Origin: DASVDK01 sp036381125 [NCBI: Thermodesulfobacteriota bacterium]
Lineage (GTDB): Bacteria > DASVDK01
DNA: 5,453 bases
NCBI GenBank assembly: GCA_036381125.1
Contig: DASVDK010000239.1
Location: 1 to 5,453 of the forward strand
Direction: 5' to 3'
Shown here: positions 3,005 to 5,453 of the stretch, in pieces
How positions within the stretch are numbered: the first letter of the stretch is position 1
Layout of the letters: every line of letters begins with the position of its first letter
The notes under the pieces: generated by a model
The model's database searches: none
What the model saw: the letters and a program-made list of their open reading frames with translations, nothing else
What the model was told of the DNA's origin: nothing
Program-made: the position numbers and the translations under genes

Positions 3005-3541
3005 TCAACGGGGCAGGGCAGACGCTGCGAGTATGGCGGCAAGCAGGACCCCCACGAAGAAGCACCCGGACTGCAGCATCCCGAGAATGCCGGCCCGCGT
3101 CTGCCAGACCATCATGACCCGCTCGGGGCCTTCGAATTCGGGGAATTTGCCCTCGGCCAGCCGGTCGATCTGTGCGTCGATGTTCGGCATGCCCTGCGCC
3201 AGACCGAGCCGCAGGCGTCTCTGCTCAATGTCAACGGCCGTCGCCATTTCGCCCAACCAGAATAGTGTGATCCTGATGGCCAACCGGCACAGGATTCCGC
3301 TGAGTACCGCCAGCGTGAACGCAGCCAGCGTCGAGACTACAAGCGGACGTGAGACCGTTTCGAGATCGGCAAAGGTCGAAAGAGCCGGACCTACGCCCAG
3401 AATTGCGCCCGCGCTCAGGCTGACGAGCCAGGTCGCGAGATTGTCCACGTGGCGGATGTACTCACCCCCTCGCCTGAACTCCTCGCGTCGGAGCGCCTCG
3501 ACATGGTCGAGGAATATCGTACGGGCCTCGTTGACGGGCAT
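3005..3541 (-). CDS. Small membrane protein with about three transmembrane segments, moron-like cargo
   Basis: The protein is 178 aa and encoded against the operon. Residues 1-34 are charged and helical (EALRREEFRRGGEYIR), followed by hydrophobic segments at about 36-56, 67-96 and 149-174. Between the last two lies a roughly 50-residue polar helical loop (IEQRRLRLGLAQG and on). An inner-membrane location is likely. I recognise no family. The ATG at 3541 has GAGGAA (plus-strand 3552-3557) 10 bases upstream. Codons are far less G/C-biased than in the neighbours, with TTG, CTA, GTA, ATA and TCA all used; I counted 34 of 60 G/C in 3241-3300 against 49 of 60 in 1081-1140. Opposite strand, different composition and flanking repeats fit a lysogeny-expressed moron, for example superinfection exclusion or host fitness, but that role is inference. 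No terminator hairpin is evident after the stop. The open + frame across it is Ser/Arg-rich and shadow-like. Confidence 0.75.
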   Translation of the reverse strand: MPVNEARTIFLDHVEALRREEFRRGGEYIRHVDNLATWLVSLSAGAILGVGPALSTFADLETVSRPLVVSTLAAFTLAVLSGILCRLAIRITLFWLGEMATAVDIEQRRLRLGLAQGMPNIDAQIDRLAEGKFPEFEGPERVMMVWQTRAGILGMLQSGCFFVGVLLAAILAASALPR

Positions 3542-3653: not shown

Positions 3654-4204
3654 GCGCGCGCGAGCTCAGCCAGGTCGAGGGCCTCGACGTCGCCGTCCAG
3701 GCGCTCGACGCCTTCGGCGTCCCGGCGGAGGTGATCGCGGACCTCCGCGCGAAGGTCGCGCAGCTCGGCCAGGTCCTCGCCATCGCCGGCGAGACGGTCG
3801 AGGACTGGCACAACTGGCGCGGCATGGCGTCGACCTTCCAGGCGGCCGACGACTCGATGTGGCGGCTCCGACGGGCGCTCCGCCGGGCGGGCCTCGATGT
3901 CGGCCCCCGGCGGGACACGCTCTGGTGGCGCGGGGCCCTGATCCAGGAGGTGAACGCGGCCGGCTTCTACCGCGGCGCCGACGACCTCCTGCGGCACGAC
4001 CCCTCGGGCGACCGGATCCTCGGCGACGCCGTGGGCCCGACGCTGCGCGAGGTGGTCCTCCTGGCCGGGCTGCCCGTACCGCCGCCACGCCGCCTCGGGC
4101 GGTGCACGCGCTGCGGCGTCCGGCTGACCGCGGCACTCGGCCACGAGCCGGCGACGGACCGGCCCTACTGCGGCGGCGCGATCGAGTGGGGGGCGATGGT
4201 CTGA
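3650..4204 (+). CDS. Hypothetical protein with C-terminal Cys motif
   Basis: The 184-aa protein is of unknown function. Residues 1-75 are helical (VQALDAFGVPAEVIADLRAKVAQLGQ region). The middle has a tryptophan-rich patch (WHNW 53-56, LWWRG 91-95) and a basic RRALRRAG (74-81). The C-terminus has CTRC (152-155), H165 and C174 in RPYCGG, a possible irregular zinc site with spacing C-x2-C-x9-H-x8-C. The start has GAGGA at 3636-3640, 9 bases upstream, and is overlapped by the TGA of the remnant frame (ATGA). The stop overlaps the next ATG (TGATG at 4202-4206). Codons are strongly G/C-ending, unlike the minus-strand gene beside it, so this belongs to the original operon. Its place between nuclease and initiator suggests an early-phage accessory, but nothing more specific is supported. 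Confidence 0.75.
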   Translation: MSARELSQVEGLDVAVQALDAFGVPAEVIADLRAKVAQLGQVLAIAGETVEDWHNWRGMASTFQAADDSMWRLRRALRRAGLDVGPRRDTLWWRGALIQEVNAAGFYRGADDLLRHDPSGDRILGDAVGPTLREVVLLAGLPVPPPRRLGRCTRCGVRLTAALGHEPATDRPYCGGAIEWGAMV

Positions 4205-4458: not shown

Positions 4459-4662
4459 ATGCCGCTCGAGCCTCGGTTCCTCCTCGCGCCCCCGCTCGCG
4501 CTCCCGCTCGCCGTCGGTCTCCTGGTCGTCGAGCCGTGTCACGGCGGCCGGTGCGTGAACCCGTACGACCTGAGCCTGTGCCACCTCCCGGTCCGGCAGG
4601 CGGCGCCGACGCCCTGGGACGAGCCGGCCGCGCCGGCGACACGGGGGTCCGATGCCGCGTGA
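4459..4662 (+). CDS. 67-aa protein with hydrophobic N-terminus and Cys/His cluster
   Basis: The N-terminus reads MPLEPRFLLAPPLALPLAVG, giving a hydrophobic stretch at about residues 7-24. EPCHGGRC (25-32) and LCHLPV (40-45) follow, with Cys27, His28, Cys32, Cys41 and His42, then a Pro/Ala-rich tail. The first part could be a short membrane anchor or signal-like segment, although the prolines weaken that. The Cys/His cluster could bind a metal. Reality is supported by the good ribosome binding site, by exact abutment to the previous stop, by strongly G/C-ending codons, and by an 11-base overlap with the initiator gene (ATG at 4652, stop at 4660-4662). No family is recognised. Confidence 0.6.
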   Translation: MPLEPRFLLAPPLALPLAVGLLVVEPCHGGRCVNPYDLSLCHLPVRQAAPTPWDEPAAPATRGSDAA

Positions 4663-5453
4663 CTACTCGCGCGTCGCACCAGGCTTCTGGACGGGTCCGA
4701 CGGGGCGGGCCATCCGCGCGCTCGGCCAGGACGCGCTCCTGGTGGCGCTGCACCTGATGACCTCGCCGCACGCGACGATGCTCGGCCTCTACTACGTGCC
4801 CGAGGCCTACATCGCGCACGAGACGGGGATCCCGGTCGCGCGGGTACGGAAGGCGCTCGAGGGCCTGGCGGGGCTCGACTTCGCCCACTACGACCCGGCG
4901 AGCGAGCACGTCTGGGTGGTCGAGATGGCCCAGTACCAGATCCTCGAGCCTGACGAGGTCGCCCTCAAACCGGGCGACAACCGGATCAAGGGCATCCGGA
5001 AGGCCTACGCGGCGCTGCCGACGAACGCGCACCTCGGTCGGTTCTTCGACCGCTACGCCGAGGCCTTCCACCTCGAGATCCGAAGGGACTCCGAAGCGAC
5101 TCCTGGAAGCCCCTCCGAAGGGGCTTCCAAGGGGCTTCCCGCGCAGGCGAAGCCCCTCCGAAGCCAGGAACAGGAACAGGAACAGGAGCAGGACCAGGAG
5201 CAGGAGCGGGCTCCGCGCGACGCGCCGCCGAGCGGCGCCTCGCCAGCCTCGGCGGCCCGGAACGGGCATGGGCGTGTGGGAGGGTCGACGGCGTCGGCGG
5301 CCCTAGATCCCGACCTCATGGCGGTCCTGGCCGAATGCCCGCACCTGCAGCTCGTCGCGACGCCGGCGTCGGCCGCGTTCTGGGAGTCGGTCTTTGCCGC
5401 CTGCGAGCCATACCCCCTCGCGGACCACCGCTGGCTCACGGCGAAGATCCGTA
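4652..5453 (+). CDS. Phage replication initiator / replisome organiser, 3' end cut by window
   Basis: At least 267 codons are open to the window edge with no stop. The N-terminal domain (about 1-110) starts MPRDYSRVAPGFWTGPTGRA, then has LLVALHLMTSPHATMLGLYYVP and IAHETGIPVARVRKALEGL. This is a winged-helix arrangement I recognise from phage replication proteins (replisome organisers, DnaD/lambda-O-like in role). VWVVEMAQYQI (about 90-100) is the wing and final strand. Residues about 144-215 are a low-complexity linker, including QEQEQEQEQDQEQE (172-185). A second domain begins near 226 (DPDLMAVLAECPHLQL) and runs off the edge; by analogy it would contact the helicase or its loader. The start overlaps the previous gene by 11 bases and has only a weak G-run upstream, so coupled translation is likely. 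The linker DNA contains the iteron array proposed as origin, with codons (CGA, AGG, ACT, CCT, CTT) rare elsewhere in the operon. Confidence 0.8.
   Translation, partial: MPRDYSRVAPGFWTGPTGRAIRALGQDALLVALHLMTSPHATMLGLYYVPEAYIAHETGIPVARVRKALEGLAGLDFAHYDPASEHVWVVEMAQYQILEPDEVALKPGDNRIKGIRKAYAALPTNAHLGRFFDRYAEAFHLEIRRDSEATPGSPSEGASKGLPAQAKPLRSQEQEQEQEQDQEQERAPRDAPPSGASPASAARNGHGRVGGSTASAALDPDLMAVLAECPHLQLVATPASAAFWESVFAACEPYPLADHRWLTAKIR
5082..5163 (+). repeat. Iteron-like array, candidate phage replication origin inside the initiator gene
   Basis: Forward 11-mers of the form GAAGSSMCTCC lie at 5082-5092, 5093-5103, 5106-5116 and 5149-5159. Inverted copies lie at 5117-5127 and 5128-5138. The 9-base core GAAGCCCCT occurs four times exactly, forward at 5106 and 5149 and inverted ending at 5127 and 5138. 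GAAGCCCCTCCGAAG is identical at 5106-5120 and 5149-5163, 43 bases apart, so the two copies are read in different frames (GSPSE versus AKPLRS). AAGGGGCTTCC is repeated in tandem at 5118-5139 with an 11-base period, again in different frames. This points to selection on DNA rather than protein. The location in the linker region of the initiator matches lambda ori within gene O. The origin function is inferred. Confidence 0.6.
5104..5129. repeat. Perfect inverted repeat within the iteron array
   Basis: A 10-bp stem (TGGAAGCCCC, 5104-5113, with 5120-5129) encloses a 6-base loop, TCCGAA. A second, alternative 9-bp inverted repeat joins 5130-5138 with 5149-5157 across a 10-base spacer. There is no T-run after either, so I read them as opposed protein-binding sites and not as a terminator. 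Confidence 0.75.
5165..5206 (+). repeat. Seven tandem CAGGAN hexamers, purine-rich tract
   Basis: The units are CAGGAA three times, then CAGGAG, CAGGAC, CAGGAG and CAGGAG. The hexamers stay in frame and encode the Gln-Glu/Asp repeat of the linker. The strand is strongly purine-biased (A/G, with one C per unit and one extra C) and lies directly beside the iterons. In lambda ori, the element next to the iterons is a strand-asymmetric AT-rich stretch; here it is GC-richer, so an unwinding role is uncertain. Confidence 0.8.

Follow-up and report, generated by a model that had tools for sequence, protein, structure and literature searches.

Positions 5082-5206 of the window (the whole stretch of DNA analysed, 5,453 nucleotides) probably form the initiator-binding half of a lambda-type phage origin, nested in the linker codons of its own initiator gene; we place the probability of this reading at about 0.8. 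An origin within the initiator's linker had been proposed in the first-pass annotation, and the proposal gains support from DNA-level conservation among relatives, a winged-helix domain and helicase or helicase-loader genes as neighbors, as judged by sequence comparison. From these we infer that the initiator binds the array, that the adjoining tract melts and that the segment acts as an origin.

If this is true, the 11-bp iteron together with its 6-bp tract would be an origin mark across a broad range of temperate phages and prophages, and origins would be readable from sequence; the named hosts range from Escherichia and Acinetobacter to Burkholderia. It would also provide a clear natural example of protein sequence dictated by a DNA signal, one that is kept through changes of frame and orientation and that, in relatives, has settled in the codons of a putative recognition helix. 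As a model it would be neither lambda-like nor AT-rich, with DNA opened by an initiator without a DnaA-type motor. The open literature in PMC yielded no description of this 11-bp iteron and no match to the exact iteron strings, though we do not claim that the element is absent from print. The review of phage replication modules by Weigel and Seitz (2006) reportedly may list some such repeats as predicted origins.

Iteron array and hexamer tract in the window

The array lies in an initiator-like gene, with the following features:

4652..5453, plus strand: initiator-like gene, an open reading frame cut by the window end, with a winged-helix N-terminal part, the iteron linker, the hexamer tract and the start of a variable C-terminal part
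4835..4873, plus strand: codons of helix-α3 (putative DNA-recognition helix), residues 60-72 of the AlphaFold2 model, also placed by alignment with CRP; site of the second cluster in relatives
4849..4859, no strand: degenerate core GAAGGCGCTCG, a possible relic of the second cluster, 2 mismatches to GAAGSSSCTTC
5082..5092, minus strand: iteron 1, GAAGGGACTCC, 2 mismatches
5093..5103, no strand: iteron 2, GAAGCGACTCC, 2 mismatches, mixed center
5106..5116, plus strand: iteron 3, GAAGCCCCTCC, 1 mismatch, CCC center
5117..5127, minus strand: iteron 4, GAAGGGGCTTC, exact, GGG center
5128..5138, minus strand: iteron 5, CAAGGGGCTTC, 1 mismatch, GGG center
5149..5159, plus strand: iteron 6, GAAGCCCCTCC, 1 mismatch, CCC center, 21 bp (about two turns) past iteron 5
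5160..5164, plus strand: GAAGC half-element linking the array to the tract; its AAGC is the anchor for the family consensus
5165..5206, plus strand: hexamer tract CAGGAA/CAGGAG, a putative unwinding or loader-entry element (TRF period 6, 6.8 copies)

Six 11-mers within 2 mismatches of GAAGSSSCTTC thus start at 5082, 5093, 5106, 5117, 5128 and 5149 in the linker, where the first-pass annotation had reported about six copies in both orientations. The start-to-start spacings are 11, 13, 11, 11 and 21 bp, followed by 11 bp to the half-element before the tract, and the departures from 11 bp mean that the array stays in frame. Both the 11-bp arrays and the tract (as a 6/12-bp repeat) are detected by TRF. 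When synonymous codons were shuffled with the gene's protein and codon usage kept fixed, the relaxed linker count reached at most 5 in 3,000 shuffles versus the 6 observed, and the four strict cores (AAG[CG]3CT[TC]) of the window were reached by none of 20,000. A phased-pair pattern with 2 mismatches allowed matches the window 5 times, a figure that includes single sites counted on both strands, versus 0.03 expected, and none of 200 dinucleotide shuffles reached 5.

Two further points of the first-pass annotation concern coding. Identical 15-mers occupy 5106-5120 and 5149-5163, 43 bases apart, and are read in different frames as GSPSE and AKPLRS, just as had been stated. The reported shift away from G/C-ending codons is likewise present: GAA and GAG stand at 5:79 across the operon's remaining genes, at 1:11 in the non-linker part of the initiator gene and at 5:3 in the linker and tract (a ratio obtained by subtraction).

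The purine-rich hexamer tract described after the array is found at 5165-5206. It is 81% purine and 59.5% GC (the window is 73.2% GC), its autocorrelation at period 6 is 0.92, and the last strict core starts 15 nt before it, which is also the distance seen most often in relatives. That an AT-rich melting tract is lacking, as had also been claimed, holds in absolute terms: an AT-rich unwinding region was looked for beside the iterons, and in its place lies this purine-rich period-6 tract, which at 40% AT is AT-rich only relative to the window (27% AT).

The initiator-like protein and two iteron clusters among its relatives

The initiator-like gene matches PHROGs 25210 (E 1.6e-58), 1701 ('DnaD-like helicase loader', E 9e-44) and 12196, and weakly PHROG 345 ('replication initiation O-like', E 0.011); a Pfam search gave no family at E<=1. 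The PHROG label for the family is helicase loader and not initiator, which counts against the origin reading. The AlphaFold2 model of residues 1-145 is a winged helix (mean pLDDT 94.7) in which helix-α3 spans residues 60-72, and its top structural matches are CRP-type winged helices with Z about 9. Foldseek returned no match of the model to the PDB at E <= 0.001, and a PDB sequence search with the initiator nothing better than E = 1. Structural comparison nevertheless establishes the fold, and we assign the N-terminal winged helix with confidence as the predicted DNA-binding domain of the initiator. The initiator of one relative (L032, JX403940.1) is annotated as starting at 5916 of the record, which is too late, since the homologous domain begins near 5652.

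Relatives were sought by protein patterns outside the element (V[WF]VxEMAx[YFW]Q, P[HS][AS][NT]MxG...); the alignment query found 82 loci, of which 80 were kept. A search of genome contigs with a single initiator protein as query gave no matches. The synonymous statistics are limited to these loci and the window because loci picked by DNA pattern carry selection bias: the 80 loci, minus the partial L307 and plus the window, were reduced to 59 representatives below 80% identity. The viral-contig scan and part of the surveys of peptide variants and helix codons used loci picked by DNA pattern, and the tree-change counts, cluster-distance analysis and tract autocorrelation mix loci of both kinds.

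In the linkers of the 59 representatives there are 93 strict cores versus 10.5 +/- 2.6 in 300 synonymous shuffles (maximum 18), a ninefold excess, and the rest of the gene is near background (12 versus 8.0 +/- 2.3). The spacing between linker cores is 11 bp in 36 of 46 cases, all three reading frames are used (34/42/17), and the centers are CCC in 72 cores, GGG in 16 and mixed or other in 5. At least one strict linker core is present in 47 representatives and at least two in 33; 12 have none, two of these being genes truncated ahead of the linker. A wider set of 79 representatives, drawn from 188 genes, behaves alike: 48 have at least two strict linker cores, 8 have none, and the spacing is 11 in 51 of 64 cases. 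Comparison thus establishes, at the level of sequence, that the repeats are conserved as DNA and phased at 11 bp.

The junction between array and tract is also fixed. The distance from the start of the last core to the start of the tract is 15 nt in 22 of the 39 representatives that have both, and 15+11 or 15+22 in 10 more. The family consensus, taken from the 70 of the 79 wider-set representatives that could be aligned on the AAGC junction (L023, L025 and genes under 175 aa being left out), is GAAGCCCCTTCnAAGCCCCTTcgAAGCCAAGAgCAGGAa / GAAGCCCCTTCnAAGCCCCTTcgAAGCCAAGAgCAGGAaCAgGAg.

Beyond what the first-pass annotation described, there is a second iteron cluster in relatives, placed where the DNA-binding helix is encoded. 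The codons of helix-α3 contain 71 cores in the 59 representatives versus 10.4 +/- 3.1 in 300 shuffles (maximum 22), a sevenfold excess. The peptide EGAxKGL occurs at this helix in 33 of the 59, encoded by GAA in 32 of the 33, GGG in 32, GCT in 26, AAG in 33, GGG in 27 and CTT in 32, and this codon usage indicates that the putative recognition helix is itself encoded by iteron-like DNA. The second cluster, a pair or triple of iterons, is mostly in the GGG orientation and the linker cluster mostly in the CCC orientation. Two relatives (L314 and L317) have three cores at helix-α3 at exact 11-bp spacing. The recognition helix is, however, not a universal location, and we rejected it as such: the N-terminal cluster of L320-L324 precedes the helix, at nt 44-66, with three cores there in L320 and L321. 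In the window itself, the helix-codon region has a single strict core, not above chance (shuffle mean 0.51).

This second cluster bears on an alternative in which the repeats are genuine initiator-binding sites that serve control (autorepression, handcuffing or copy control) and are not the origin itself. Control loci of iteron plasmids typically have additional clusters away from the origin, and the mostly GGG-oriented cluster in the N-terminal codons of relatives would fit such a role, as would the exact cores that 4 of 77 representatives carry in the 300 nt before the gene. The linker array, however, is locked to its own tract by the 15-nt distance, as expected of an origin with its unwinding element, and the equivalent position in lambda O is the origin. 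We regard a purely regulatory role as unlikely, and the two roles can coexist.

The distances between the two clusters in 99 representatives are quantized, with 254, 266 and 278 nt in 11, 34 and 28 of them and steps of 12 or 9, and they have changed at least 42 times on the tree. The analysis was corrected for the choice of first core, which by itself creates 11-nt steps. This quantization may reflect helical phasing, or whole-iteron turnover with frame repair; we do not claim helical phasing between the clusters, because gain or loss of whole iterons with repair of the frame by 1-2 nt predicts the same steps. A more elaborate picture, which we put forward tentatively as the less likely course, is a two-cluster origin within coding sequence: the initiator would bridge the clusters into a helicase-loading loop, an iteron-reading helix would itself be iteron-encoded, and a trio-like tract would be common to the initiators of very different phages.

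Changes of peptide, frame and orientation, and genomic context

In the window's nested origin as proposed, the DNA and not the peptide should be what persists, and relatives provide the comparison. Homologs that keep the linker peptide and lose the repeats would have counted against the first-pass annotation; the opposite is seen, the repeats being kept as peptide, frame and orientation change. The linker peptides include EAPSKPLRS, EGASKGLRS and QGASKGVGRGLEAPPK, of which the first is the CCC-oriented array read across three frames and the second the same array in the opposite orientation. One relative, L018, has a different peptide, yet four copies in 11-bp register. Among the 48 wider-set representatives with at least two linker cores, 43 are read in two or more frames, 12 combine both orientations and 33 show only CCC. 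The 70 anchored rows include 40 with CCC and 9 with GGG at the second slot before the tract, and on a tree of 87 rows the orientation there has changed at least 13 times. The tree used for orientation and frame changes was built without the helix residues.

The hexamer tract changes its reading as well. Averaged over 122 genes, the autocorrelation is higher at period 6 (0.66) than at period 3 (0.42), and the tract is read as QEQEQE (the commonest by far), GTGTGT, GAGAGA, TETETE or AVAVAV. Its frame has changed at least 11 times on a tree of 110 rows, 97 of which are in frame 0, the QEQEQE reading. A codon-level test inside the tract gave no excess (CAGGAA 81 versus 77 +/- 6.6 in shuffles), a weak test because most Q and E codons sit in the tract itself. 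As codon choice there is not above the shuffles, the evidence for the tract rests on its frame changes and position. Under the strict definition it is absent in 13 of the 59 representatives, several of which have a related hexamer. In L025 (match 5001-5258; 27% identity), the linker carries different, 12-bp in-frame repeats (VEHRVEHR), followed by a QEQEQE tract; from this case, the hexamer tract may be common to origins with other iterons.

These changes decide against a protein-level account, in which a flexible, charged linker rich in S/P/K and Q/E arises from simple repeats expanding by slippage. Such a process would suit the predominance of frame 0 and the hexamer copy number, which differs between close relatives. 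The cores nevertheless exceed synonymous shuffles, the same DNA yields EAPSKPLRS, EGASKGLRS, GTGTGT, GAGAGA or TETETE according to frame and orientation, and the numbers of orientation and frame changes are those given above. We reject this account as highly improbable, in agreement with the earlier statement that a protein-level explanation fails.

The origin reading is further strengthened by the confinement of the pattern to the initiator gene. Across 79 genome loci, 78 phased pairs lie inside the gene (70.4 kb); the flanks, which total 687.8 kb, contain a single pair, and it is 61 nt from the gene on its upstream side. A complete phage genome of 45,364 bp has five exact AAG(CCC|GGG)CTT cores in all, and the whole set falls within 498 bp, in and just before the initiator gene. 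When viral contigs were scanned at the DNA level alone for a pair of phased cores with AAGC, at least 120 stretches were found, near-duplicates included. Among the 120 matches listed, 101 contain an open reading frame of the initiator family, in which the sites fall either at the helix codons or in the linker. The other 19 listed include further phage initiators with the same 11-bp arrays and other 6-bp tracts (AATAGT, GGTATAGGTAAT, AAGGAA), some of them matching replication-initiation PHROGs, as well as two primase genes and one unclear case.

Several isolated sites may be recorded here. The phased-core pattern in primase-like genes (L093 at 2702 and L110 at 6348, NKGLPSPFEALL) is perhaps due to chance. 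Four mixed-orientation cores at 1087 of L104 lie beside a TAGATCTAGAGATAGATATA-like stretch, with no clear initiator open reading frame. Exact cores occur just upstream of the initiator at 5611 in L313 and at -27 to -61 of the domain start in L253, L278, L228 and L312; such upstream cores are possibly an autoregulatory site.

The repeats could instead be bound by a host protein, or mark a recombination hot spot where an exchangeable DNA-binding module meets C-terminal modules. Two observations would fit: relatives with similar N-terminal domains differ in their C-terminal parts, and the core is shared by initiator families with N-terminal domains weakly or not comparable with that of the window (hhalign probability 60%, E 9e-5, and 0.5%). 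Sites of this kind should also occur outside the initiator gene, so the near-absence of phased pairs from the flanks (1 of 79 pairs) disfavors this idea, to which we give very little credence. Inverted copies could pair into an mRNA or DNA hairpin, and the window has perfect 11-nt inverted arms (for example 5104-5114/5119-5129). We find this scarcely credible, because 36 of the 48 arrays are in one orientation only, leaving no conserved hairpin between copies.

The downstream genes of most relatives surveyed agree with an origin nested in the initiator gene. The survey covered 18 loci, of which 16 have a downstream open reading frame; the first 10 were picked partly by eye and the other 6 scanned afterwards. 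A DnaB helicase or helicase loader is encoded next in 10 of the 16 (6 DnaB, 2 IstB/DnaC-like AAA+ proteins and 2 lambda P homologs), and 6 are not recognizable as either (1 DUF6475 and 5 without a Pfam match at 1e-4). Annotated phage relatives have a DnaC-type or primase-helicase gene directly downstream; the window ends before the next gene. In one relative, Acinetobacter phage B1251, the minimum of the GC skew is at 3998, about 1.6 kb before the gene, at a divergent transcription boundary.

Elsewhere in the window, the open reading frame at 92-1858 encodes a HerA/FtsK-like ATPase (Pfam DUF87 and HerA_C; PHROG 2666, labeled terminase large subunit) in whose C-terminal part a similar stretch appears twice (...GGGTFRDYLSRLRR...). 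A small protein resembling VRR-NUC and Holliday-junction resolvases is encoded at 2346-2729 (Pfam VRR_NUC at E 0.003, below the cut-off; PHROG 5702 at E 5.5e-5). At 3005-3541 on the minus strand, the list of open reading frames has a lone gene that stands between plus-strand phage genes; its product, of about 178 aa and with hydrophobic stretches, is possibly a membrane protein, and the gene a moron or cargo.

A mechanism can be proposed on this basis. The N-terminal winged helix would bind the 11-bp iterons, and because these are about one helical turn apart, the bound protomers would stack on one face of the DNA. The iteron center (CCC or GGG) would set the orientation, both being accepted. 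The resulting nucleoprotein complex might open, or hand over, the adjoining purine-rich hexamer tract, where the C-terminal part of the initiator and the helicase or loader encoded downstream would place DnaB. The protein sequence of the linker would then be a by-product of the upkeep of the DNA element.

Comparison with known origins and initiators

Bacterial oriC, with its DnaA-boxes and DnaA-trios, offers an analogy: there too double-strand sites adjoin a short-period repeat, and the tract can be divided into 3-nt units (CAG GAA, CAG TAA) with a central A. A passage of PMC10721633 gives the DnaA-trio consensus as 3'-GAT-5'. DnaA-trios have a trinucleotide period, whereas the tract is a hexamer by its autocorrelation, and the likeness is one of analogy only. 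No TTWTNCACA with up to 1 mismatch occurs near 5082-5206; the window has a single 1-mismatch DnaA-box site, at 2071-2079 (0.28 expected). An unwinding system of DnaA-boxes and DnaA-trios was therefore rejected, as there is no DnaA box near the array.

Plasmid initiators of the RepA type share the winged-helix N-terminal domain. Three entries, 4pql, 4pt7 and 5kbj, which we take to be staphylococcal RepA, match the N-terminal model with Z about 8 over 81-82 residues, whereas CRP-like winged helices match it equally well or better.

The closest arrangement is that of lambda ori in gene O, and of its relatives in Stx phages, where the iterons likewise lie mid-initiator, between the N-terminal DNA-binding domain and the C-terminal part. 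The lambda iterons are read in frames 0, 2, 2 and 1 of gene O, and those of the window's family are also read in different frames. In lambda, an unwinding tract follows the iterons and a helicase-loading gene comes next; here the tract is a putative unwinding element, and the next gene encodes a helicase or loader in 10 of 16 relatives, a lambda P homolog in two of them. The parallel with lambda, drawn in the first-pass annotation with the 11-bp period and mixed orientation as differences, is borne out in both respects: the four lambda iterons are 18 bp long and spaced 20, 24 and 23 bp, in one orientation as annotated, whereas the units here are 11 bp long, one turn apart and in either orientation.

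The tracts differ as well. The sections on lambda ori in PMC7466680 describe an AT-rich region beside the iterons. By our measurements, the lambda tract is 68% AT with a period-6 autocorrelation of 0.30, versus 40% AT and 0.92 for the purine-rich hexamer here. Finally, outside its array lambda gene O matches the iteron at no more than 11 of 18 positions, whereas relatives of the window's gene have the second cluster. Since the AT-rich feature was sought and the tract proved otherwise, we class the element as a variant of the nested phage origin and not as lambda ori itself. The best explanation is thus a nested phage origin that is new in its one-turn phasing, in the second cluster within the DNA-binding-domain codons of its relatives and in its hexamer in place of an AT-rich tract.
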